Source of the DNA: Pelagibacteraceae bacterium AG-313-A04
Lineage (GTDB): Bacteria > Pseudomonadota > Alphaproteobacteria > Pelagibacterales > Pelagibacteraceae
Assembly: GCA_003284275.1 (NCBI GenBank)
Contig: QBVU01000002.1
Span: 1-64,000, forward strand
Direction of reading: 5' to 3'
DNA length: 64,000 nt
Shown: piece by piece, positions 4,798-14,748 of the stretch
Layout of the letters: each line of letters starts with the position of its first letter
Position numbering within the stretch: position 1 is the stretch's first letter
Notes under the pieces: model-generated
Told to the model about the DNA's origin: nothing
Database searches by the model: none
Seen by the model: only the letters and a program-made list of their open reading frames with translations
Position numbers and translations under genes: made by a program

Positions 4798-6210
4798 ATG
4801 GAAAAAAAAGCAAAAATTATAGCAACATTAGGACCAGCAATTTATAATGAAACTAAGCTAAAACAGCTTGTCAAATTAGGAGTTGATGCTTTTAGAATTA
4901 ATTTTAGCCATGAAACAAAAAATGTTTCTTCTATTGTTAAAAAAATAAGAAAAATTGAGAGAAGCACTGATAAAAAAATTGCTCTTATAGCTGATTTACA
5001 AGGCGTAAAACTTAGAATTGGTAAAATCAAAGATAATGTTAAAAAAATTAAGTTTAATCAAAAATTTACTTTTGATGCTAAGAAAGATTTAGGTGATAAA
5101 AATAGAATAAGCTTCCCTTATCCCAAAATTCTTAAGAAATTAAAAAAAGGTAATAAAATTTTAATCGATGATGGTAAATATACTTTTGTCGTAATTGGTA
5201 AAACAGGAACTTCAGTCAAAACATTATGTAAAAGTCAAAATTGTTTAATAAGGAATAATAAAAGCATTCACATTCCAAATTTTGACATCACATTCAACAA
5301 ATTAACATTAAAAGATAAAAAAGATATTAAAACTGCTGTTAAGCTTGGATGTAATTGGGTTGCTCTATCTTACTTACAAAATGAAAAATTAATACTTGAA
5401 GCTAGAAAGTTAATCAAGAAAGACATGGGAATTATTTCTAAAATTGAAAACAAACATGCTCTTCGCAATATAAATAAGATTATACAAGCAACAGACTCGA
5501 TTATGATAGCTAGAGGAGATCTTGCTATAGATATTGGTCATAGCGAAGTTCCAAAAGTTCAATTAAGTTTAATTAAGAAATGCTCTCAATTTTCTAAATC
5601 TGTAATTGTAGCAACACAAATGCTCGAAAGTATGATTGAAAATAATACTGCAACTCGAGCTGAGATTAATGATATAGCAACAGCTATCTTCCAAGGTGCA
5701 GATACAGTTATGCTATCAGCTGAAGCTGCTATTGGTAAATTTCCAACTCAAGCTGTCTCAACAATGGCTGAAACTATTCTTTCAACAGAAAAATATAAAA
5801 GAGAACATATTGAAGATTTTAAAAATTCTATTTTTTCAGATAATGATCCAGTTAAATCAATATTAAGATCAGTAAAAAATATTGCTTACAATAAAAATGT
5901 AAAAGCAATAATTGTTTTTTCTAATTCAGGGAAATCTGCAAAACTAGTTTCTGCTATGAGACCTGCTGCAAAAATTGTAACAATCTCACCAAATATAAAT
6001 ATTTGTAGACAAGTTTCTTTATTATGGGGTGTACAATCTAAAAATAGTAGAGATGCAAATGGTTGGAAAGACATGATGTCTATTTCTAGAGAAATTATTA
6101 GAAAGTTAAAATTTATAAAGAAGAGTGATTTCGTCATAATTACTGCTGGCTTACCATTTGGTAAAGCTGGTATGACGAATATGATTAGACTTTATAAAGT
6201 TGGAACTTAA
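4798..6210 (+). CDS. pyk: Pyruvate kinase
   Basis: The 470-aa protein begins KAKIIATLGPA and has the family's substrate-binding and catalytic segments: FRINFSHE, ALIADLQGVKLRIG, IISKIENKHALRNI (catalytic Lys in SKIE), IMIARGDLAIDIG and VATQMLESMI. A C-terminal alpha/beta regulatory domain contains TAGLPFGKAGMTNMI. It converts phosphoenolpyruvate and ADP to pyruvate and ATP. The B domain begins with ADLQGVKLRIG instead of the usual ADxxGPKIR, a small departure. The stop codon directly abuts the stop of the convergent gap gene with no spacer. Pfk, Pyk and Gap together imply functional lower glycolysis. Confidence 0.95.
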   Translation: MEKKAKIIATLGPAIYNETKLKQLVKLGVDAFRINFSHETKNVSSIVKKIRKIERSTDKKIALIADLQGVKLRIGKIKDNVKKIKFNQKFTFDAKKDLGDKNRISFPYPKILKKLKKGNKILIDDGKYTFVVIGKTGTSVKTLCKSQNCLIRNNKSIHIPNFDITFNKLTLKDKKDIKTAVKLGCNWVALSYLQNEKLILEARKLIKKDMGIISKIENKHALRNINKIIQATDSIMIARGDLAIDIGHSEVPKVQLSLIKKCSQFSKSVIVATQMLESMIENNTATRAEINDIATAIFQGADTVMLSAEAAIGKFPTQAVSTMAETILSTEKYKREHIEDFKNSIFSDNDPVKSILRSVKNIAYNKNVKAIIVFSNSGKSAKLVSAMRPAAKIVTISPNINICRQVSLLWGVQSKNSRDANGWKDMMSISREIIRKLKFIKKSDFVIITAGLPFGKAGMTNMIRLYKVGT

Positions 6211-7215
6211 TTAAATTAGACCAGCAATTTGAATTGCCGTATCACACATTCTGTTTGAGAATCCCCACTCGTTATCATACCAAGAAAGCACTCTACTAAA
6301 TTTCCCTTTAATAACTTGAGTCTGAGTTAAATCAAAAATTGAACTGTGCGGATTATGATTAAAATCTTTTGATACTAATGGGGATGAATTTGTTGCTAAA
6401 ATACCTTTAAGAGGACCACTAGCAGCTTTACTCATTGCATCATTAATACTTTCAACTGTAACTTCTTTGTTAGGTACAAAAGTAAGATCTATTAAAGAAA
6501 CATTAGGCGTTGGAACTCTTATTGCAGTACCATCTAATTTTCCTTTTAAACTTGGTAAAACTAAGCTCATCGCTTTTGCTGCGCCAGTGGATGTTGGTAT
6601 CATTGCATCTCCTGAAGCTCTTGCTCTTCTAAGATCTTTGTGAAGAGTATCTAATAATTTTTGATCACCAGTATAGCTGTGAATAGTAGTCATATATCCA
6701 TATTGAATTCCAAAACTATTCTCTAAAACCAAAGCTACTGGGGCCAAACAGTTTGTAGTGCATGATCCGTTTGAAATTATATTATGTTCTTTTTTGAGTG
6801 CTTTGCTGTTTACTCCTTGAACAACTGTAAAATCTACCTCTTTAGCAGGAGCAGAAATAATTACTTTTTTAGCCCCGGCTTCGATATGCTTACCTGCTGA
6901 AGCTTTGTCTAAAAAGAAGCCTGTACACTCTAAAACAACATCAGCGCCAATTTTACCCCATGGAAGTTTAGCAGGATCTTTTTCTGCAAAAACTTTTATG
7001 TTTTGATCTCCTATTTGAAATCCTTCAGATGAAGTTTTAACTTCCTGAATTAAAGTTCCATGAGTACTATCGAATTTTATTAAATGTGCATTGGCTTCGA
7101 TTGAGCCAAGATCATTTATACCTACAACTTGAATTTTACCTTTATAATTTTCTAGAAAAGCTCTTAAAATTAATCTTCCTATTCTTCCAAATCCATTTAT
7201 TCCGACTTTGATCAT
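6211..7215 (-). CDS. gap: Glyceraldehyde-3-phosphate dehydrogenase, type I
   Basis: The 334-aa protein opens with the NAD-binding VGINGFGRIGRLILRAF and contains the active-site SNGSCTTNCLAP (nucleophilic cysteine), SYTGDQKLLD, RRARASGDAMIPTSTGAAKA and the C-terminal SWYDNEWGFSNRM. It oxidises glyceraldehyde-3-phosphate to 1,3-bisphosphoglycerate in the cytoplasm. It starts 2 bases after the glpU stop in the same direction, so it may be read through from the glycerol transport operon, which makes metabolic sense since glycerol enters glycolysis one step earlier as DHAP. The stop abuts the pyk stop. Confidence 0.96.
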   Translation of the reverse strand: MIKVGINGFGRIGRLILRAFLENYKGKIQVVGINDLGSIEANAHLIKFDSTHGTLIQEVKTSSEGFQIGDQNIKVFAEKDPAKLPWGKIGADVVLECTGFFLDKASAGKHIEAGAKKVIISAPAKEVDFTVVQGVNSKALKKEHNIISNGSCTTNCLAPVALVLENSFGIQYGYMTTIHSYTGDQKLLDTLHKDLRRARASGDAMIPTSTGAAKAMSLVLPSLKGKLDGTAIRVPTPNVSLIDLTFVPNKEVTVESINDAMSKAASGPLKGILATNSSPLVSKDFNHNPHSSIFDLTQTQVIKGKFSRVLSWYDNEWGFSNRMCDTAIQIAGLI

Positions 7216-7217
7216 TT

Positions 7218-7574
7218 TTATACGTATTTAAATACAATCACAAAATATGCAACACAAATAATCGTTGCTATCCACAACATACTACCTACAAGACCAAGCC
7301 ATGCTAAATGAATAAACGCACTTCCTAATAATGAAACAAAAAGTCTGTCTCCTCTTGTGGTATCTAACCCTAAGATACCTCGCCTTGGAGATCCGCCTGG
7401 AACTTTTTTCTCCCAGAAATACATCACTGTTATACAAAACGCTATAAAGATAAAAAAACTAGCTGTAGGCCAAGTCCATGCCATCCATGTTATAAAATCA
7501 AAATCAAAAAGACCTTTTTCTTTTGGTTGACCGACTGTTGACCAGCTAGACGCATAAAGATTTGTAAACATCAT
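7218..7574 (-). CDS. glpU: Small DUF2160-type membrane subunit of the glycerol ABC transporter
   Basis: The 118-aa protein has three hydrophobic helices and the DUF2160 hallmark PRRGILGLDTTRGDRLF followed by GSAFIHLAWLGLVG. In characterised GlpSTPQV-type glycerol transporters a small membrane protein of this family accompanies the permeases; its exact role is not known. The start overlaps the glpQ stop in an ATGA junction; a second ATG lies one codon later. It is the last transporter gene before gap. Confidence 0.82.
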   Translation of the reverse strand: MMFTNLYASSWSTVGQPKEKGLFDFDFITWMAWTWPTASFFIFIAFCITVMYFWEKKVPGGSPRRGILGLDTTRGDRLFVSLLGSAFIHLAWLGLVGSMLWIATIICVAYFVIVFKYV

Positions 7575-8371
7575 ACTCTCCCCATCGCAAATCCTTTGGC
7601 AATATAGTTTCTCACAAAATATATTACCACTGCTCCAGGAATAATAGTCAAACTACCAGCTGCTGCTAATAAACCCAGTTCATATCCTGAAGTACTAGAA
7701 GTTCTTGTCATAATTGCTGCAATTGGTTTTGCTATTGTAGCTGTAAGTGTTTTAGCTAATAATAATTCTACCCAAGAAAACATAAAACAAAAAAACATGG
7801 TAATACCTATTCCGGCAGCAATTGTAGGAATAAATATTTTAAAGAAAAATCTTCCAAAAGAATAACCGTCAACATATGCTGTTTCATCTAATTCTTTAGG
7901 TACAGCGGACATAAATCCTTCAAGTATCCAAACTGCTAATGGAATATTAAATAAACAGTGAGATAAAGCAATGGCTATATGAGTATCAAATAAATTAACA
8001 GAAGAATAAAACTGAAAGAATGGCAAAGCAAAAACAGCTGGTGGCGCCATTCTGTTCGTAAGCAACCAAAAAAATAAATGTTTGTCCCCCAAAAATTTAT
8101 ATCTTGAAAAAGCATAAGCTGCTGGTAGAGCGGCAGATACAGAAATAATTGTGTTAAAAACTGTATAAGTTATAGAGTTAACATAACCCATATACCAAGT
8201 GCTATCTGTAAATATTGTTTTATAGTTAATTAATGTAAAGTCTTTTGGCCACAAAGAATAAACATTTATAATTTCGGTGGTTGTTTTGAACGACATGTTT
8301 AACAACCAATAAATAGGTAGCATTAAAAAAACTATGTAAATTGTTGGCACTAACCATTTTATTTTACTCAT
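7571..8371 (-). CDS. glpQ: Glycerol ABC transporter permease
   Basis: The 266-aa inner-membrane protein is of the MalG/UgpE type: about six hydrophobic helices and the EAA loop ELDETAYVDGYSFGRFFFKIFIPT that docks the ATPase. Its pairing with a MalF-type permease, two ATPases and DUF2160 identifies the GlpSTPQV glycerol system rather than a sugar transporter; substrate assignment rests on this context. The start overlaps the glpP stop by 4 bases (ATGA). Confidence 0.85.
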   Translation of the reverse strand: MSKIKWLVPTIYIVFLMLPIYWLLNMSFKTTTEIINVYSLWPKDFTLINYKTIFTDSTWYMGYVNSITYTVFNTIISVSAALPAAYAFSRYKFLGDKHLFFWLLTNRMAPPAVFALPFFQFYSSVNLFDTHIAIALSHCLFNIPLAVWILEGFMSAVPKELDETAYVDGYSFGRFFFKIFIPTIAAGIGITMFFCFMFSWVELLLAKTLTATIAKPIAAIMTRTSSTSGYELGLLAAAGSLTIIPGAVVIYFVRNYIAKGFAMGRV

Positions 8372-9234
8372 GATCTAGCCTCGTCTCTCATCATTATGCT
8401 GTAAAAAACCCAGCATATTAGAAGTACAATTAAAAAATAAATTAGTGACATGGCAGCTGCTGGTCCAAGATCAAATTGACCTAAAGCCATTTTAACTAGA
8501 TCAAGTGATAAAAAATTCGTTGCATTTCCTGGTCCTCCTCCTGTTAAAACAAAAGGCTCTGTATAAATCATAAAACTATCCATAAATCTTAAAAGAATAG
8601 CCAAAGTTAAAACTTTTTTCATTTTTGGTAATTCTATATATCTAAAAATGTCCCATCTACTAGCTCCATCAATCTCTGCTGCTTGATAATAAGCTGGCTG
8701 TATAGAGTTTAAACCTGCATAAGATAATAAAACAACTAAAGAAGTCCAGTGCCACACGTCCATTAAAATAGTTGTAAACCATGCATCACCGCTCTGTTGG
8801 GTAAAATTATAATCAAAACCTAAAGTATTTAGAGAGTTTCCTAAAAAACCAATATCTGGAAGAGCAAATATATTCCACATTGCCCCAACTACATTCCAAG
8901 GAATCAAAAGAGGCATTGACATTAAAATTAGACAAACAGGAACTCCCCAACCTTTTTTAGGCATTGTAAGAGCTATACCTATTCCTAAAGGTAACTGAAT
9001 TAATAAAATTATAAACGTAAATATTACTTGTCGTCCTAAAGAAGCATGAAATCTTTCAGAGTGTAAAATTTCTTTAAACCATCTAGTTCCTTCCCAAGCG
9101 AAAACATTACTTCCAAAAGTTTCTTGAAAAGAGTAATTAACTACGGTCATCAAAGGGACGGCAGCGTTAAATGCTACAAGAACAAAAACTGGAATTACAA
9201 AGAACCAAGCTTTCTGATTAAATGTTTTATTCAT
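8368..9234 (-). CDS. glpP: Glycerol ABC transporter permease
   Basis: The 288-aa protein is of the MalF/UgpA type. It has an N-terminal helix (AWFFVIPVFVLVAFNAAVPL), further transmembrane segments and the ATPase-docking loop YYQAAEIDGASRWDIFRYIELPKM. The GGGPGNATNFLSLDL segment is typical of CUT1-family permeases. It would form the membrane channel with GlpQ. The start overlaps the glpT stop by one base (TAATG), which indicates coupled translation. Confidence 0.86.
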   Translation of the reverse strand: MNKTFNQKAWFFVIPVFVLVAFNAAVPLMTVVNYSFQETFGSNVFAWEGTRWFKEILHSERFHASLGRQVIFTFIILLIQLPLGIGIALTMPKKGWGVPVCLILMSMPLLIPWNVVGAMWNIFALPDIGFLGNSLNTLGFDYNFTQQSGDAWFTTILMDVWHWTSLVVLLSYAGLNSIQPAYYQAAEIDGASRWDIFRYIELPKMKKVLTLAILLRFMDSFMIYTEPFVLTGGGPGNATNFLSLDLVKMALGQFDLGPAAAMSLIYFLIVLLICWVFYSIMMRDEARS

Positions 9235-10298
9235 TATTCAATTATCCAATTATCTCCATAAGCGTATGTATATTTTTGATCGAACGTGATATGTGCACTT
9301 CCACTTGGTATCTGAGTAGATGAGCTAGCTAAAATTTTGATACTTCCACTCTCACATTCTGTATCGATGACTTTGTGTCTGCCAGTATCACTTACTCTTT
9401 TTACTTTTACAGCTATGCCGTCATCAGAAAAATTAACAAACTCAGGTCTAATTCCAACTTGAGTTTTGTTAAAGTTAGATCTTTTTAAATTAGTATTAGT
9501 TGGTAATATTTTTCCTTCAAAATTAATTTGTCCGTTTTTTATCTCACAAGGAAGGATATTCATTCCAGGTGAACCGATAAAATGACCAACAAAAGTATGT
9601 TTTGGCTTTTCAAATAATTCTACTGGAGTACCTGTCTGTACAATCTGTCCCTCGTGCATTACAACAACTTGATCGGCAAAAGTTAATGCTTCGATTTGAT
9701 CGTGTGTGACATAAATCATTGTACGATTTATTTTTTGGTGTAATTCTTTAAGTTTAGACCTTAAAACCCATTTTAAATGTGGATCAATTACAGTTAAAGG
9801 TTCATCAAACATAATTACGTTTACATCTGATCTCACTAGTCCTCGCCCAAGAGAAATTTTTTGTTTTCCGTCTGCCGTTAAGCCAGATGCTTTGTTGTTT
9901 AAAGTAGAGGTAAGCTCTAACATTTCTCCTATTTCTTTTACTTTGGCGTCAATTTCTGTTTCTGATAACCCTCTATTTTTTAATGGAAATGCTAAATTAT
10001 TGTACACTGTCATAGTGTCATAAATAACTGGAAACTGAAAGATTTGAGCAATATCTCTCTCAACAGGATTTAGTGTTGTAACATCTTTATCATTAAACAA
10101 CACTTCACCTTTTGTTGGTTTTAGTAATCCAGAAATAATATTTAGTAATGTAGTTTTTCCACATCCAGATGGACCAAGTAATGCGTAAGCGCCTCCATCT
10201 TTCCAATCGATATTTACACCTCTTAAAGCCCAGTCTGAATCATTATTTTGTTTAGTTAAATAAGAGTGACTTAAATTATTTAAAGTGATTTTAGCCAT
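9234..10298 (-). CDS. glpT: Glycerol ABC transporter ATPase with degenerate signature motif
   Basis: The ORF track starts at 10346, but the ATG at 10298 (MAKITLNNLSHSY) is preferred: it overlaps the glpS stop by 8 bases and gives a family-typical 354-aa start. Walker A is GPSGCGKTT (42-50), Walker B VIMFDEP (161-167), and the switch histidine is present in YVTHDQ (H199). The ABC signature, normally LSGGQ, reads LTADGKQK (140-147). A C-terminal TOBE-like regulatory domain follows. It would hydrolyse ATP as a heterodimer with GlpS, which has the opposite defect. Confidence 0.87.
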   Translation of the reverse strand: MAKITLNNLSHSYLTKQNNDSDWALRGVNIDWKDGGAYALLGPSGCGKTTLLNIISGLLKPTKGEVLFNDKDVTTLNPVERDIAQIFQFPVIYDTMTVYNNLAFPLKNRGLSETEIDAKVKEIGEMLELTSTLNNKASGLTADGKQKISLGRGLVRSDVNVIMFDEPLTVIDPHLKWVLRSKLKELHQKINRTMIYVTHDQIEALTFADQVVVMHEGQIVQTGTPVELFEKPKHTFVGHFIGSPGMNILPCEIKNGQINFEGKILPTNTNLKRSNFNKTQVGIRPEFVNFSDDGIAVKVKRVSDTGRHKVIDTECESGSIKILASSSTQIPSGSAHITFDQKYTYAYGDNWIIE

Positions 10299-11355
10299 GA
10301 TTAACCAACCTGTTGTTTTGATCAAAATATAAGAATTCATTAACATTCATGTGTAATTTTGTATCTTCTCCAATGTTTTTTTGTTGGATACCATTAGAAA
10401 GAGAAACCCAATTTAAATTTCCATTCGTGAAATGAATTAAACTTTCTGAACCACTAAGTTCAGAAATTAAGACTTTTCCATTAATTTCGACTGAGTTACT
10501 TCCTTCTTTATATGTCGTTATATTGTGAGGTCTTATCCCTATTTTATATTTTCCATCTTTGATTTGTACATTTGATTTCCATTGCACATTATTATCAGCC
10601 AATTTAAAAGTATCACCGGTTTTTATTATTTCAGCTATATTCATTGGTGGATCGCTAAAAACTTTTGCTGAAGTTAAATTATTTGGCTTATTATATACAT
10701 CTAGGGTCTTTCCATATTGAATAACATTACCTTCTAATAATGTTGCAGTATTGCCACCTATCATTAATGCATCTAAAGGTTCTGTTGTTGCATATACAAC
10801 AATGCAATCTCTGTCTTCAAATAGTTTAGGTAATTCCTCTCTTAATTCTTCTCGAAGTTTAAAATCTAAGTTGGCTAAAGGCTCGTCTAATAATATTAAA
10901 TCTGAATCCTTTACCAAAGCTCTGGCCAAAGCTGTTCTTTGTTGCTGACCACCAGATAATTCGTCAGGTTTTTTTTGTAACATTGCAGATAATTTAAGAA
11001 GCTCCGCAACTTTCCCGACTCTTTTTTTAATTTCATCTGTTTTGACTCCAGTAATTTTTAGAGGTGATGCTATGTTTTCAAATACTGTAAAATTTGGGTA
11101 ATTAATAAACTGCTGGTAAACCATTGAGCAATTTCTTTTTTGAACTTCTTTCCCAGTTACATTTTCATCATTAAACCAAATTTCTCCTGAAGTAGGTTTA
11201 TCCAATCCAGCCATGATCTGCATTAAAGTTGTTTTACCTGCAAGCGTTGATCCTAGTAATACGTTGATGGTGTTTTTTTCTAATTTGAGGCTTGTAGAAT
11301 GTATATGAGTTTCTATACCTACTTTTTTCTCAATATTTTTTAATTCTAAACTCAT
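10291..11355 (-). CDS. glpS: Glycerol ABC transporter ATPase with missing switch histidine
   Basis: The 354-aa protein has Walker A GSTLAGKTT (35-43), an intact signature LSGGQQQR (133-140) and Walker B LILLDEP (153-159). In the H-loop the usual VTHDQ is replaced by ATTEP (189-193), so the catalytic histidine is a threonine. A C-terminal TOBE-like domain contains GIRPHNI. The protein complements GlpT so that one composite ATP site keeps every consensus element and the other is doubly degenerate. The gene starts 31 bases after the terminator that follows glpV. Confidence 0.87.
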   Translation of the reverse strand: MSLELKNIEKKVGIETHIHSTSLKLEKNTINVLLGSTLAGKTTLMQIMAGLDKPTSGEIWFNDENVTGKEVQKRNCSMVYQQFINYPNFTVFENIASPLKITGVKTDEIKKRVGKVAELLKLSAMLQKKPDELSGGQQQRTALARALVKDSDLILLDEPLANLDFKLREELREELPKLFEDRDCIVVYATTEPLDALMIGGNTATLLEGNVIQYGKTLDVYNKPNNLTSAKVFSDPPMNIAEIIKTGDTFKLADNNVQWKSNVQIKDGKYKIGIRPHNITTYKEGSNSVEINGKVLISELSGSESLIHFTNGNLNWVSLSNGIQQKNIGEDTKLHMNVNEFLYFDQNNRLVNHG

Positions 11356-11430: not shown

Positions 11431-13161
11431 TTATTTCCAAGCTTTTTCAAAAGCTACAGTTTTTCCTTGAGGTTTTTCATTAACTTTGGCTTTAGGTGAA
11501 CCAGCTTTATCCAACCAATAAGATGCTTCTCTTGGTTTATTAAGTCTAGGTCCACATCCACCGTACGCGTTGCTACCTTTGTCAGCAGCTTCCATACGAG
11601 ACATTACTAAGTCCATCTCATCTGCAAGACGATCCATAGTTTGTTGTGGAGTGAATGTGCCAGAGTTAACTTCTCCGATATGCTGCCACCATAATTGTGC
11701 AAGCTTCGGATAATCTGGAACGTTTACCCCTGTAGGCGACCAAACATTTCTGTTTTTAGATCTGTAGAATTCTACAAGTCCACCTAGCTCAGGAGCTCTC
11801 TTAGTAAAGTGTTTGTGATTAATAGTACTTTTTCTCACAAATGTTATACCAACATCAGCTTTTTTAAGAGATACTGTTTTTGAAACAGCAAACTGAGCAT
11901 ACAACCATGCAGCTTTTCTTCTCTCAACGTCAGTAGACTTAAATAAAGTCCAAGATCCAACGTCTTGATAACCAAGCTTCATACCTTGTTCCCAATATGG
12001 TCCTTTTGGTGAAGGTCCCATTCTCCATAACGGCATACCGTTTGCATCAACAACTTTATTGTTAGGATCTTTTCCTACTAAAGATGCTGTGAAAGCCGTG
12101 TACCAGAAAATTTGCTGAGCAACGTTTCCTGAAGATAGTGATGGTAGAGACTGATAAAAGTCCATTGCCGCAGCACCTGGAGGTGCATACTGTCTTAACC
12201 ACTCATCCCATTTTCTAATTGCGTATACAGCAGCAGGGCCGTTTGTGGCTCCACCTCTTGATACGTTAGCACCTACTGGGTTACAAGATCCAGGTTCCAT
12301 TCGAATTCCCCACTCATCTACCGGAACTCCGTTTGGTAATCCTTTACTTCCTGCACCAGCCATTGATAACCACGCATCAGTCATTCTCCAACCTAAGTCT
12401 GGAGCTCTTTTACCGTAGTCCATGTGACCGTATATTCTTACACCATCAATTTCTTTAACATCTTCTGAAAAGAATTTAGCTATATCTTCATAAGCAGACC
12501 AGTTTACTGGAACACCTAAATCATAACCATATTTTTTCTTAAATGCTTTTTGGATTTCAGGTCTATCAAACCAATCTTTTCTAAACCAATAAAGGTTAGC
12601 AAATTGTTGGTCTGGAAGTTGATAAAGATTTCCATCAGGACCTGTAGTAAATTGAAGTCCTATGAAATCATCTAAATCCAACATTGGATTAGTAACGGCT
12701 TTACCCTCACCTTTCATCCAGTCAGTTAAATTCACAGCCTGTTGCATACGCGCGTGCGTACCAATTAAGTCTGAGTCATTTACATACGCATCGTAAATAC
12801 TTACGTTCGTTTGCATTTGAGTTTGTACTGCCATTACTACATCACCTTCACCTATAATTTGGTGTTGGACTTTGATGCCTGTTATCTCTTCAAACGCTTT
12901 TGTAAGAACCTTAGATTCATACACGTGAGTAGGTATTCCTTCAGATACTACTTTTAAAGACATTCCTTTGAATGGCTTAGCAGCATCATGGAACCATTGT
13001 AGTTCTTTTTCTCTATCTTTTGCAGATAGAACTGAAAGACTAAATTCTCCATTTGACCATTTCTTGATTGCAGCCATATGACCGTCTGCAAAAGCACTAG
13101 AAATAGTTACGATTGAAAATGAAACAGTAACAGCAAAAATAGTTTTTAATGTTTTAATCAT
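11431..13161 (-). CDS. glpV: Periplasmic glycerol-binding protein of the ABC transporter
   Basis: The track start at 13173 puts the ribosome-binding GGGGGA inside the gene; ATG 13161 (MIKTLKTIFAVTVSF) gives a proper signal peptide ending at SSAFADGH and a 576-aa protein. The mature part is a large CUT1-type solute-binding protein with DFYQSLPSLSSGNVAQQIFWYTAF and a conserved CGPRLNKPREASYW C-terminus. Unusually for this proteome it has few lysine runs, as expected of a highly expressed protein. Genomic context (GlpU DUF2160, GlpK) points to glycerol. The terminator just downstream should raise its level relative to the permease genes. Confidence 0.86.
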   Translation of the reverse strand: MIKTLKTIFAVTVSFSIVTISSAFADGHMAAIKKWSNGEFSLSVLSAKDREKELQWFHDAAKPFKGMSLKVVSEGIPTHVYESKVLTKAFEEITGIKVQHQIIGEGDVVMAVQTQMQTNVSIYDAYVNDSDLIGTHARMQQAVNLTDWMKGEGKAVTNPMLDLDDFIGLQFTTGPDGNLYQLPDQQFANLYWFRKDWFDRPEIQKAFKKKYGYDLGVPVNWSAYEDIAKFFSEDVKEIDGVRIYGHMDYGKRAPDLGWRMTDAWLSMAGAGSKGLPNGVPVDEWGIRMEPGSCNPVGANVSRGGATNGPAAVYAIRKWDEWLRQYAPPGAAAMDFYQSLPSLSSGNVAQQIFWYTAFTASLVGKDPNNKVVDANGMPLWRMGPSPKGPYWEQGMKLGYQDVGSWTLFKSTDVERRKAAWLYAQFAVSKTVSLKKADVGITFVRKSTINHKHFTKRAPELGGLVEFYRSKNRNVWSPTGVNVPDYPKLAQLWWQHIGEVNSGTFTPQQTMDRLADEMDLVMSRMEAADKGSNAYGGCGPRLNKPREASYWLDKAGSPKAKVNEKPQGKTVAFEKAWK

Positions 13162-13207
13162 TATTTCCCCCATTTATTGTTATTGTTTTTTTAGAAATTA
13201 ATTGAAC

Positions 13208-13266: not shown

Positions 13267-14748
13267 TTAATTGCTTAAAGTTTTTTTAATTGCAGCAGAC
13301 CAACCTTTTAAAAGTTTATTTCTAAAAGAGTTTTTCATTTTCGGTGAAAATTTTTTGTCTAAATGCCAATTTTCTGAAATATCTTTTAATGATTTATAAA
13401 CTCCAATTTGTAACCCTGCCATAAAAGCTGCACCAAGAGCTGTAGTTTCTTGAACTTTAGGTCTAAGAACTTTTACATTTACTATGTCAGATAAAAATTG
13501 TGAAAACCAGTTATTCATTACCATGCCACCATCAACTTTTACAATTTTTGGTCTTAAACCATCATGTTTCATAGCTTCAAATAAATCGTATGTCTGGTAG
13601 GCAACCGCTTCAATTGTAGCTCTAACTATTTCTTTTGGACTTGTGTCTCTAGTAATTCCGCTTAAAACTCCTCTAGCGTTTGCATCCCAGTAAGGAGCTC
13701 CTAGCCCTGTAAAAGCTGGTACTAGATAAATATTATTATTATCTTTTAAAGATTTCACAATTTTTTCTGTTTCTCGGGCTTTCTTAAAAAATTTCATTCT
13801 GTCTCTGAGCCATTGAACGCCTGCACCTGCTATAAAAATCGATCCTTCCATAGCGTATGTTGTCTTACCATTTATTCTATATGCAATTGTAGTTAACAAT
13901 CTATTTTTTGAATAAATCTTTTTACTGCCTGTATTAAGTAAAACAAATGCTCCTGTGCCATACGTGCTTTTAAGAGATCCCGGTTCGAAACAACATTGAC
14001 CAATAGTAGCTGATTGCTGATCCCCAACAACACCGTTTATTGGTATGGACGTACCTGTAATTGATGAATGAGTTTGACCGTAATCATCAGCACAATCTTT
14101 CACCTCAGGAAGAATATGTTTTTTGATTTTTAATAAATTTAAAATCGTATCATCCCATTTATTAGTGCTAATATTATAAATCATTGTTCTACTTGCATTA
14201 GTGGCATCAGTTGCGTGTACTTTTCCTCGAGTTAATCTCCAAATTAGAAAACTATCAATTGTTCCAAACAATAATTGTTTTTTATTCATTAGTTGTTTAG
14301 CTTTAGAAACATTATCTAATATCCATTTAATTTTTGTTCCTGAAAAGTAAGAATCAATTAAAAGACCTGTTTTGTTAAAGATCATTGTATCTTTGTTTTG
14401 TTTTCTTAATTTTTTGCAAAACTCCTCTTGTCTACGGTCTTGCCAGACAATTGCATTGTAAACTGGCTTACCTGTTTTTTTGTCCCACAAAACAGTTGTT
14501 TCTCTTTGATTTGTAATACCTATACTTAAAATTTCACCTCTTAGTCTTTTTGCTTTTCGAATAATATCTTTTAAAGTTTTCAAAGTTGTTCTCCAAATTT
14601 CCTCTGGATTATGTTCCACCCAACCACTTTTTGGGAAATATTGTGTAAACTCTTTTTGTGAAGAAAAAACTGGTTTACCTTTTAAATCAAATAATATTGA
14701 TCGATTAGAAGTAGTCCCAGCATCAATTGAGATTATAAATTTTTTCAT
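13267..14748 (-). CDS. glpK: Glycerol kinase
   Basis: The 493-aa FGGY-family kinase starts IISIDAGTTSNRSILFD (phosphate-binding loop) and contains the N-terminal substrate loop IGITNQRETTVLWDKKTGKP, VWQDRR, a C-terminal ATP-binding segment YGTGAFVLLNTG and KVDGGMVMNNWFSQFLSDI with LGAAFMAGL. It converts glycerol and ATP to sn-glycerol-3-phosphate. It overlaps the gpsA stop by 4 bases (ATGA) and precedes the glpV transporter gene, fitting uptake of free glycerol rather than glycerol-3-phosphate. Confidence 0.94.
   Translation of the reverse strand: MKKFIISIDAGTTSNRSILFDLKGKPVFSSQKEFTQYFPKSGWVEHNPEEIWRTTLKTLKDIIRKAKRLRGEILSIGITNQRETTVLWDKKTGKPVYNAIVWQDRRQEEFCKKLRKQNKDTMIFNKTGLLIDSYFSGTKIKWILDNVSKAKQLMNKKQLLFGTIDSFLIWRLTRGKVHATDATNASRTMIYNISTNKWDDTILNLLKIKKHILPEVKDCADDYGQTHSSITGTSIPINGVVGDQQSATIGQCCFEPGSLKSTYGTGAFVLLNTGSKKIYSKNRLLTTIAYRINGKTTYAMEGSIFIAGAGVQWLRDRMKFFKKARETEKIVKSLKDNNNIYLVPAFTGLGAPYWDANARGVLSGITRDTSPKEIVRATIEAVAYQTYDLFEAMKHDGLRPKIVKVDGGMVMNNWFSQFLSDIVNVKVLRPKVQETTALGAAFMAGLQIGVYKSLKDISENWHLDKKFSPKMKNSFRNKLLKGWSAAIKKTLSN

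Follow-up and report, generated by a model that had tools for sequence, protein, structure and literature searches.

In ABC transporters, each composite ATP site combines the A-loop, H-loop and Walker motifs of one nucleotide-binding domain (NBD) with the signature of the other, and in TAP, CFTR and TM287/288-type exporters the altered H-loop and signature belong to one and the same site (PMC7756269). The degenerate site of exporters is usually defined by a missing catalytic glutamate (PMC7544095), and a degenerate ATP site has also been published for the importers RbsA and NupO (PMC11466899). What leads many ABC transporters to retain one ATP site that is inactive, and what each substrate molecule costs in ATP, are open questions that have been studied mostly in exporters, and importers offer another setting in which to study why many transporters work with only one active site. 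The closest described relative of the locus analysed here is the glycerol importer GlpVSTPQ, which is reportedly needed for glycerol use in Rhizobium leguminosarum (according to the title of a 2012 study by Ding, cited in PMC11962113). An orthologous system in Ruegeria pomeroyi (SPO0608-0612) has been verified for glycerol import by mutants (PMC10130141). From these two systems, lineages with such ATPase pairs probably do transport. In a literature search that covered mainly openly accessible papers, we found no paper mentioning an asymmetry between GlpS and GlpT.

The window (the whole stretch of 64,000 nucleotides that was analysed, from a SAR11 (Pelagibacterales) assembly of 0.96 Mb) carries a glycerol-importer cluster on its minus strand in the order glpK-glpV-glpS-glpT-glpP-glpQ-DUF2160, with a G3P dehydrogenase-like gene beside the glpK end and GAPDH after DUF2160. 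The importer gene set is complete: near the glycerol kinase gene glpK (13267-14748) lie glpV, encoding a solute-binding protein (SBP_bac_1, 11431-13173), the two ATPase genes glpS (10291-11355) and glpT (9234-10298), the two BPD_transp_1 permease genes glpP (8368-9234) and glpQ (7571-8371), and the gene for a small DUF2160 membrane protein (7218-7574). The same GlpS-GlpT-GlpP-GlpQ-DUF2160 arrangement, close to a solute-binding protein gene and glpK and with the same motif defects in the ATPases, is found in GlpVSTPQ on plasmid pRL9 of R. johnstonii 3841; the window differs in having glpV upstream of glpS, and GAPDH after DUF2160. By analogy with R. pomeroyi, the window's system would be a GlpVSTPQ-type importer with glycerol as its substrate. 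The closest loci are from Pelagibacteraceae, with 92-96% identity for the DUF2160 protein. In almost every complete locus that was inspected this protein is encoded beside the glp genes (next to an importer permease in SAR11 and in other Alpha- and Gammaproteobacteria), and it may be an extra transporter subunit. Beside the cluster, at 4798-7215, lie a pyruvate kinase gene (plus strand) and GAPDH (minus strand), which brings genes for glycerol uptake and lower glycolysis together.

Both ATPases find their best NCBIfam matches in UgpC/GlcV, below the equivalog cut-offs, and their best PDB matches in MalK-like chains; judging from these similarities, GlpS and GlpT are MalK/UgpC-type (CUT1) importer ATPases, the group to which their ABC NBDs lie nearest. 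An OB_MalK domain is detected in GlpT (2.8e-6), while GlpS gives no match at the 1e-3 threshold, and GlpT is 57% identical to the R. johnstonii 3841 protein. In phylogenetic trees GlpS and GlpT each form one clade with a support of 100, and the trees neither resolve nor reject a sister grouping of the two, or a clade of GlpT with ABC2 (from a second importer described below). Low-scoring GlpS matches in S. meliloti and Burkholderia plasmids proved to be ordinary UgpC-like ATPases and were discarded. AlphaFold models of GlpS and GlpT, built from shallow alignments of 30-34 SAR11 sequences, had pLDDT values of 57 and 43, too poor for use. The glpT reading frame opens at 10346, and the conserved ATG (MAKITL) at 10298 is probably the true start; from there GlpT, like GlpS, is 354 residues long, and its gene overlaps glpS by 8 nt (ATGGCTAA), an overlap of stop and start that supports paired synthesis of the two subunits.

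The preliminary description had GlpS lacking the H-loop histidine (ATTEP) but keeping LSGGQ, and GlpT keeping the histidine with LTADGKQK in place of LSGGQ; both open reading frames are present on the minus strand and their motifs are exactly as described. The GlpS H-loop reads YATTEP (10777-10794), with threonine (codon 10783-10785) at the position of the histidine, and the A-loop has valine instead of an aromatic residue (11320-11322). The subunit further has a Walker A motif that keeps its lysine (GSTLAGKTT, 11227-11253), the signature LSGGQQQR (10936-10959), a Walker B motif with the catalytic Glu158 (LILLDEP, 10879-10899) and a D-loop of the usual NLD form (ANLD). GlpT has a canonical Walker A (GPSGCGKTT, 10149-10175), a tyrosine in the A-loop, a Walker B with the catalytic Glu166 (VIMFDEP, 9798-9818) and an H-loop with its histidine (YVTHDQ, 9696-9713); the departures are in the signature, LTADGKQK (9858-9881), and in the D-loop, which reads TVIDP (9780-9794), unlike (S)NLDA.

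To see how far these features extend, which the preliminary description had proposed to settle by aligning homologues, loci were collected with DUF2160 as the anchor, yielding 172 aligned adjacent GlpS/GlpT pairs (74 from SAR11, the window and 97 others); three more pairs, left out by an overlap filter, were checked apart and bring the total to 175. The homologues sampled are from Pseudomonadota (Alpha- and Gammaproteobacteria), and the DUF2160 family is absent from 14 named control genomes. No GlpS among the 172 has the H-loop histidine (threonine in 161, serine in 11), and no GlpT has both signature glycines together (Gly3 is Ala in 161 and Pro in 11; Gly4 is Asp in 170, Glu in one and Ala in one); the three extra pairs agree on both counts. 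All 175 pairs therefore carry both defects, and homologues canonical in both subunits, which would have pointed to local mutations, do not occur among them. The counterpart motifs are equally constant: LSGGQ is present in every GlpS (172/172), the GlpT histidine in all 171 readable aligned sequences (174/174 with the extra pairs) and the A-loop tyrosine in every GlpT (172/172), while the GlpS A-loop position is V/I in 165 and aromatic in only 2 of 172. The Walker A lysine, the Q-loop glutamine and the catalytic glutamate are kept in both subunits (the glutamate 172/172 in each), and TVIDP is invariant in GlpT (172/172).

Compared in pairs, the GlpS sequences have a median identity of 50% and the GlpT sequences one of 56%, and the uniformity holds across this divergence. 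The codons behind the unusual residues vary freely: the GlpS H-loop threonine is encoded by ACA (66), ACC (64), ACT (16) and ACG (15), with serine in the other 11, and the GlpT signature aspartate by GAT (95) and GAC (75), and in the codon comparison the GlpT D-loop residues are invariant at the amino-acid level. Because all synonymous codons are used while the residue is nearly fixed, the degenerate positions are selected rather than decayed; they are under clear purifying selection, and natural selection has left the predicted lopsided ATP-site design essentially unchanged across the sampled Proteobacteria. Streamlined, AT-rich SAR11 genomes might have been expected to harbour local mutation or decay, and two loci could be read that way: L017, a SAR11 single-cell genome with an in-frame stop within glpT (L017:3829-3831) that makes its H-loop unreadable and represents either a pseudogene or a sequencing error, and L053, which is without glpS and glpT. 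With 175 of 175 alpha- and gammaproteobacterial pairs sharing both defects under purifying selection, this explanation retains practically no probability and was rejected.

For reference, 54 distinct MalK/UgpC-type ATPases were taken from the loci examined, 53 of them readable at the H-loop. The histidine is missing in one of these (L234), one has the strongly altered signature LGEGE (L233) and L222 reads LSSGD; the rarity of both defects in this background, together with their conservation in 172 pairs, indicates that the GlpS/GlpT pattern is not due to chance. L234 and L233 are partners in a single operon (L242) that also encodes a binding protein and two permeases. We refer to this pair as ABC1/ABC2; it belongs to a second and rare MalK-type importer present at L242:4050-9663 and L252:6723-12500 (in L251, where the contig ends, ABC1 is seen without ABC2). 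The notion that a tandem of ATPase genes within an operon is always a sign of degeneracy was rejected, as the tandem ATPases L222, L224, L225, L226 and L204 all keep the histidine and a glycine at the second signature-glycine position. A divergent sister pair of GlpS/GlpT is encoded on an Ensifer adhaerens plasmid (L246:1234-3720), with YNTTEP and LTAGEKQ; it retains the second glycine of the signature and is a possible intermediate. Tandem canonical MalK-type ATPases are found at L254:6520-8612, in an importer operon beside dhaKL (dihydroxyacetone kinase-like); two ATPases can thus coexist with full sites, and this pair is possibly a symmetric relative of GlpS/GlpT.

When the motifs are placed on the NBD architecture, the changes in the A-loop, H-loop, signature and D-loop (the last contributed by the signature-donating side of a composite site) all fall on the site made of the GlpS Walker motifs and the GlpT signature. 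On this predicted pairing, the site made of the GlpT Walker motifs and the GlpS LSGGQ would be complete, while the other would lose several conserved motifs, so the division into a full site and a degenerate one put forward in the preliminary description fits established NBD geometry (PMC7756269). Overall, we consider it likely that GlpS and GlpT form an obligate heterodimer, as predicted from their motifs, with one hydrolytic site and one conserved non-canonical site.

This assignment presumes that the two subunits are partners. MalK-type ATPases can be common to several transporters, and the genome also encodes a UgpC-type ATPase (G000:C3) with which either subunit could pair, if they did not form homodimers. 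However, glpS and glpT overlap by those 8 nt, L053 is the only complete locus of the operon in which they do not lie side by side, and their defects are complementary, so that homodimers would carry two impaired sites; separate pairing is accordingly very improbable. At L053:4425-6001 (AG-325-D03), purE/purK-like genes adjoin a truncated glpP, and glpV, glpS and glpT are missing, through either a deletion or a chimeric single-cell assembly; the other pairless loci are short and probably truncated where their contigs end. A more serious alternative, although still an unlikely one, is that the second site is non-canonical yet hydrolysing, with the GlpS TTEP and the GlpT LTADxKQK serving as alternative working motifs in a functionally symmetric ATPase. 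The retention of the Walker A lysine, Q-loop glutamine and catalytic glutamate in both subunits speaks for it, as do the tight conservation of the replacement residues themselves and the contrast with exporter degenerate sites, which usually are without the glutamate (PMC7544095) that this site keeps. Against it, one side has lost the histidine, the A-loop aromatic and the two signature glycines while the other site is intact, and such one-sided losses make equal work by both sites hard to explain.

The heterodimer with a single hydrolytic site suggests the following working model. GlpS and GlpT would be co-translated, both being obligate as ATPase subunits, and would serve a glycerol importer of the GlpVSTPQ type (CUT1/MalK-type), arranged head to tail, with the complete hydrolytic site formed by the A-loop, Walker A, Walker B and histidine of GlpT and the LSGGQ of GlpS. 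The non-canonical site, assembled from the GlpS Walker A and B motifs and the LTADxKQK and TVIDP of GlpT, would keep the Walker lysine and the catalytic glutamate and be without the A-loop aromatic, the H-loop histidine and both signature glycines. Because the losses concern mainly elements that clamp the nucleotide and sense the gamma-phosphate, we predict that ATP is held only loosely at this site, or is not properly sandwiched there, instead of being bound tightly without hydrolysis, and that the site may act as a conserved interface for structure, timing or regulation. Most likely, each cycle would cost one ATP, hydrolysed at the site with the GlpT Walker motifs. In the histidine permease, transport can reportedly be supported by one intact ATP-binding subunit (by the title of a 1999 paper by Nikaido and Ames, cited in PMC7756269), which makes import driven from a single site plausible. 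As an importer of a soluble substrate with an accessible growth phenotype (glycerol), present in bacteria that are easy to handle and comparable with a MalK-type system that has two full sites (L254), it makes both the stoichiometry and what the weak site does directly testable, and a one-ATP importer could affect the cost of small C3 uptake in SAR11 and roseobacters.

How does this design compare with other asymmetric transporters? The preliminary description had likened it to TAP and CFTR, and the likeness stands in so far as these and TM287/288-type exporters combine a full composite site with a degenerate one; the usual exporter hallmark, loss of the catalytic glutamate, does not apply to GlpS/GlpT, which is thus no copy of TAP or CFTR. 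As read from the motifs, the degeneracy pattern is different from the usual exporter type. The accompanying remark that asymmetry has been little discussed for importers is fair, but needs qualifying, since importers with unequal sites are an already known kind. RbsA/NupO also have one degenerate site (PMC11466899), in fused NBDs where the Walker A lysine and, in NupO, Walker B residues are lost, all of which GlpS keeps. LivF/LivG, the ATPases of a large family of branched-chain amino acid importers, share the complementary layout in the window's genome and in the 31 LivF and 30 LivG sequences read: LivF keeps SGGE and has glutamine for the histidine, and LivG keeps the histidine with an [APS][YH]G signature. 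In that SAR11 genome (L005:1453-2963), VEQN occurs with LSGGEQ and IEHD with LPYGDQ. Compared with GlpS/GlpT, LivF/LivG are not MalK-type and their changes are milder (histidine to glutamine, second signature glycine kept). A further parallel is ABC1/ABC2, in which ABC1, grouping with GlpS (support 89/93), keeps SGGEQ and is without the histidine (ATPD), while ABC2 keeps THD and has an L[GA]EGE signature; this importer differs in operon order, in its sugar-catabolism-like neighbours, in that no DUF2160 gene was seen beside it, and in keeping the A-loop aromatic. Tentatively, and with rather more doubt than for the heterodimer itself, we suggest that importers repeatedly evolved or kept a complementary design (LivF/LivG, GlpS/GlpT, ABC1/ABC2), in which the GlpS/GlpT site would be of a new sort, with the glutamate kept and the clamping elements lost, a conserved non-hydrolytic and perhaps nucleotide-poor interface, and the transporter would spend one ATP per glycerol. 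What is new relative to the known systems is a MalK-type asymmetric case with an unusual degeneracy pattern, accompanied by a second, rarer pair (L242, L252).
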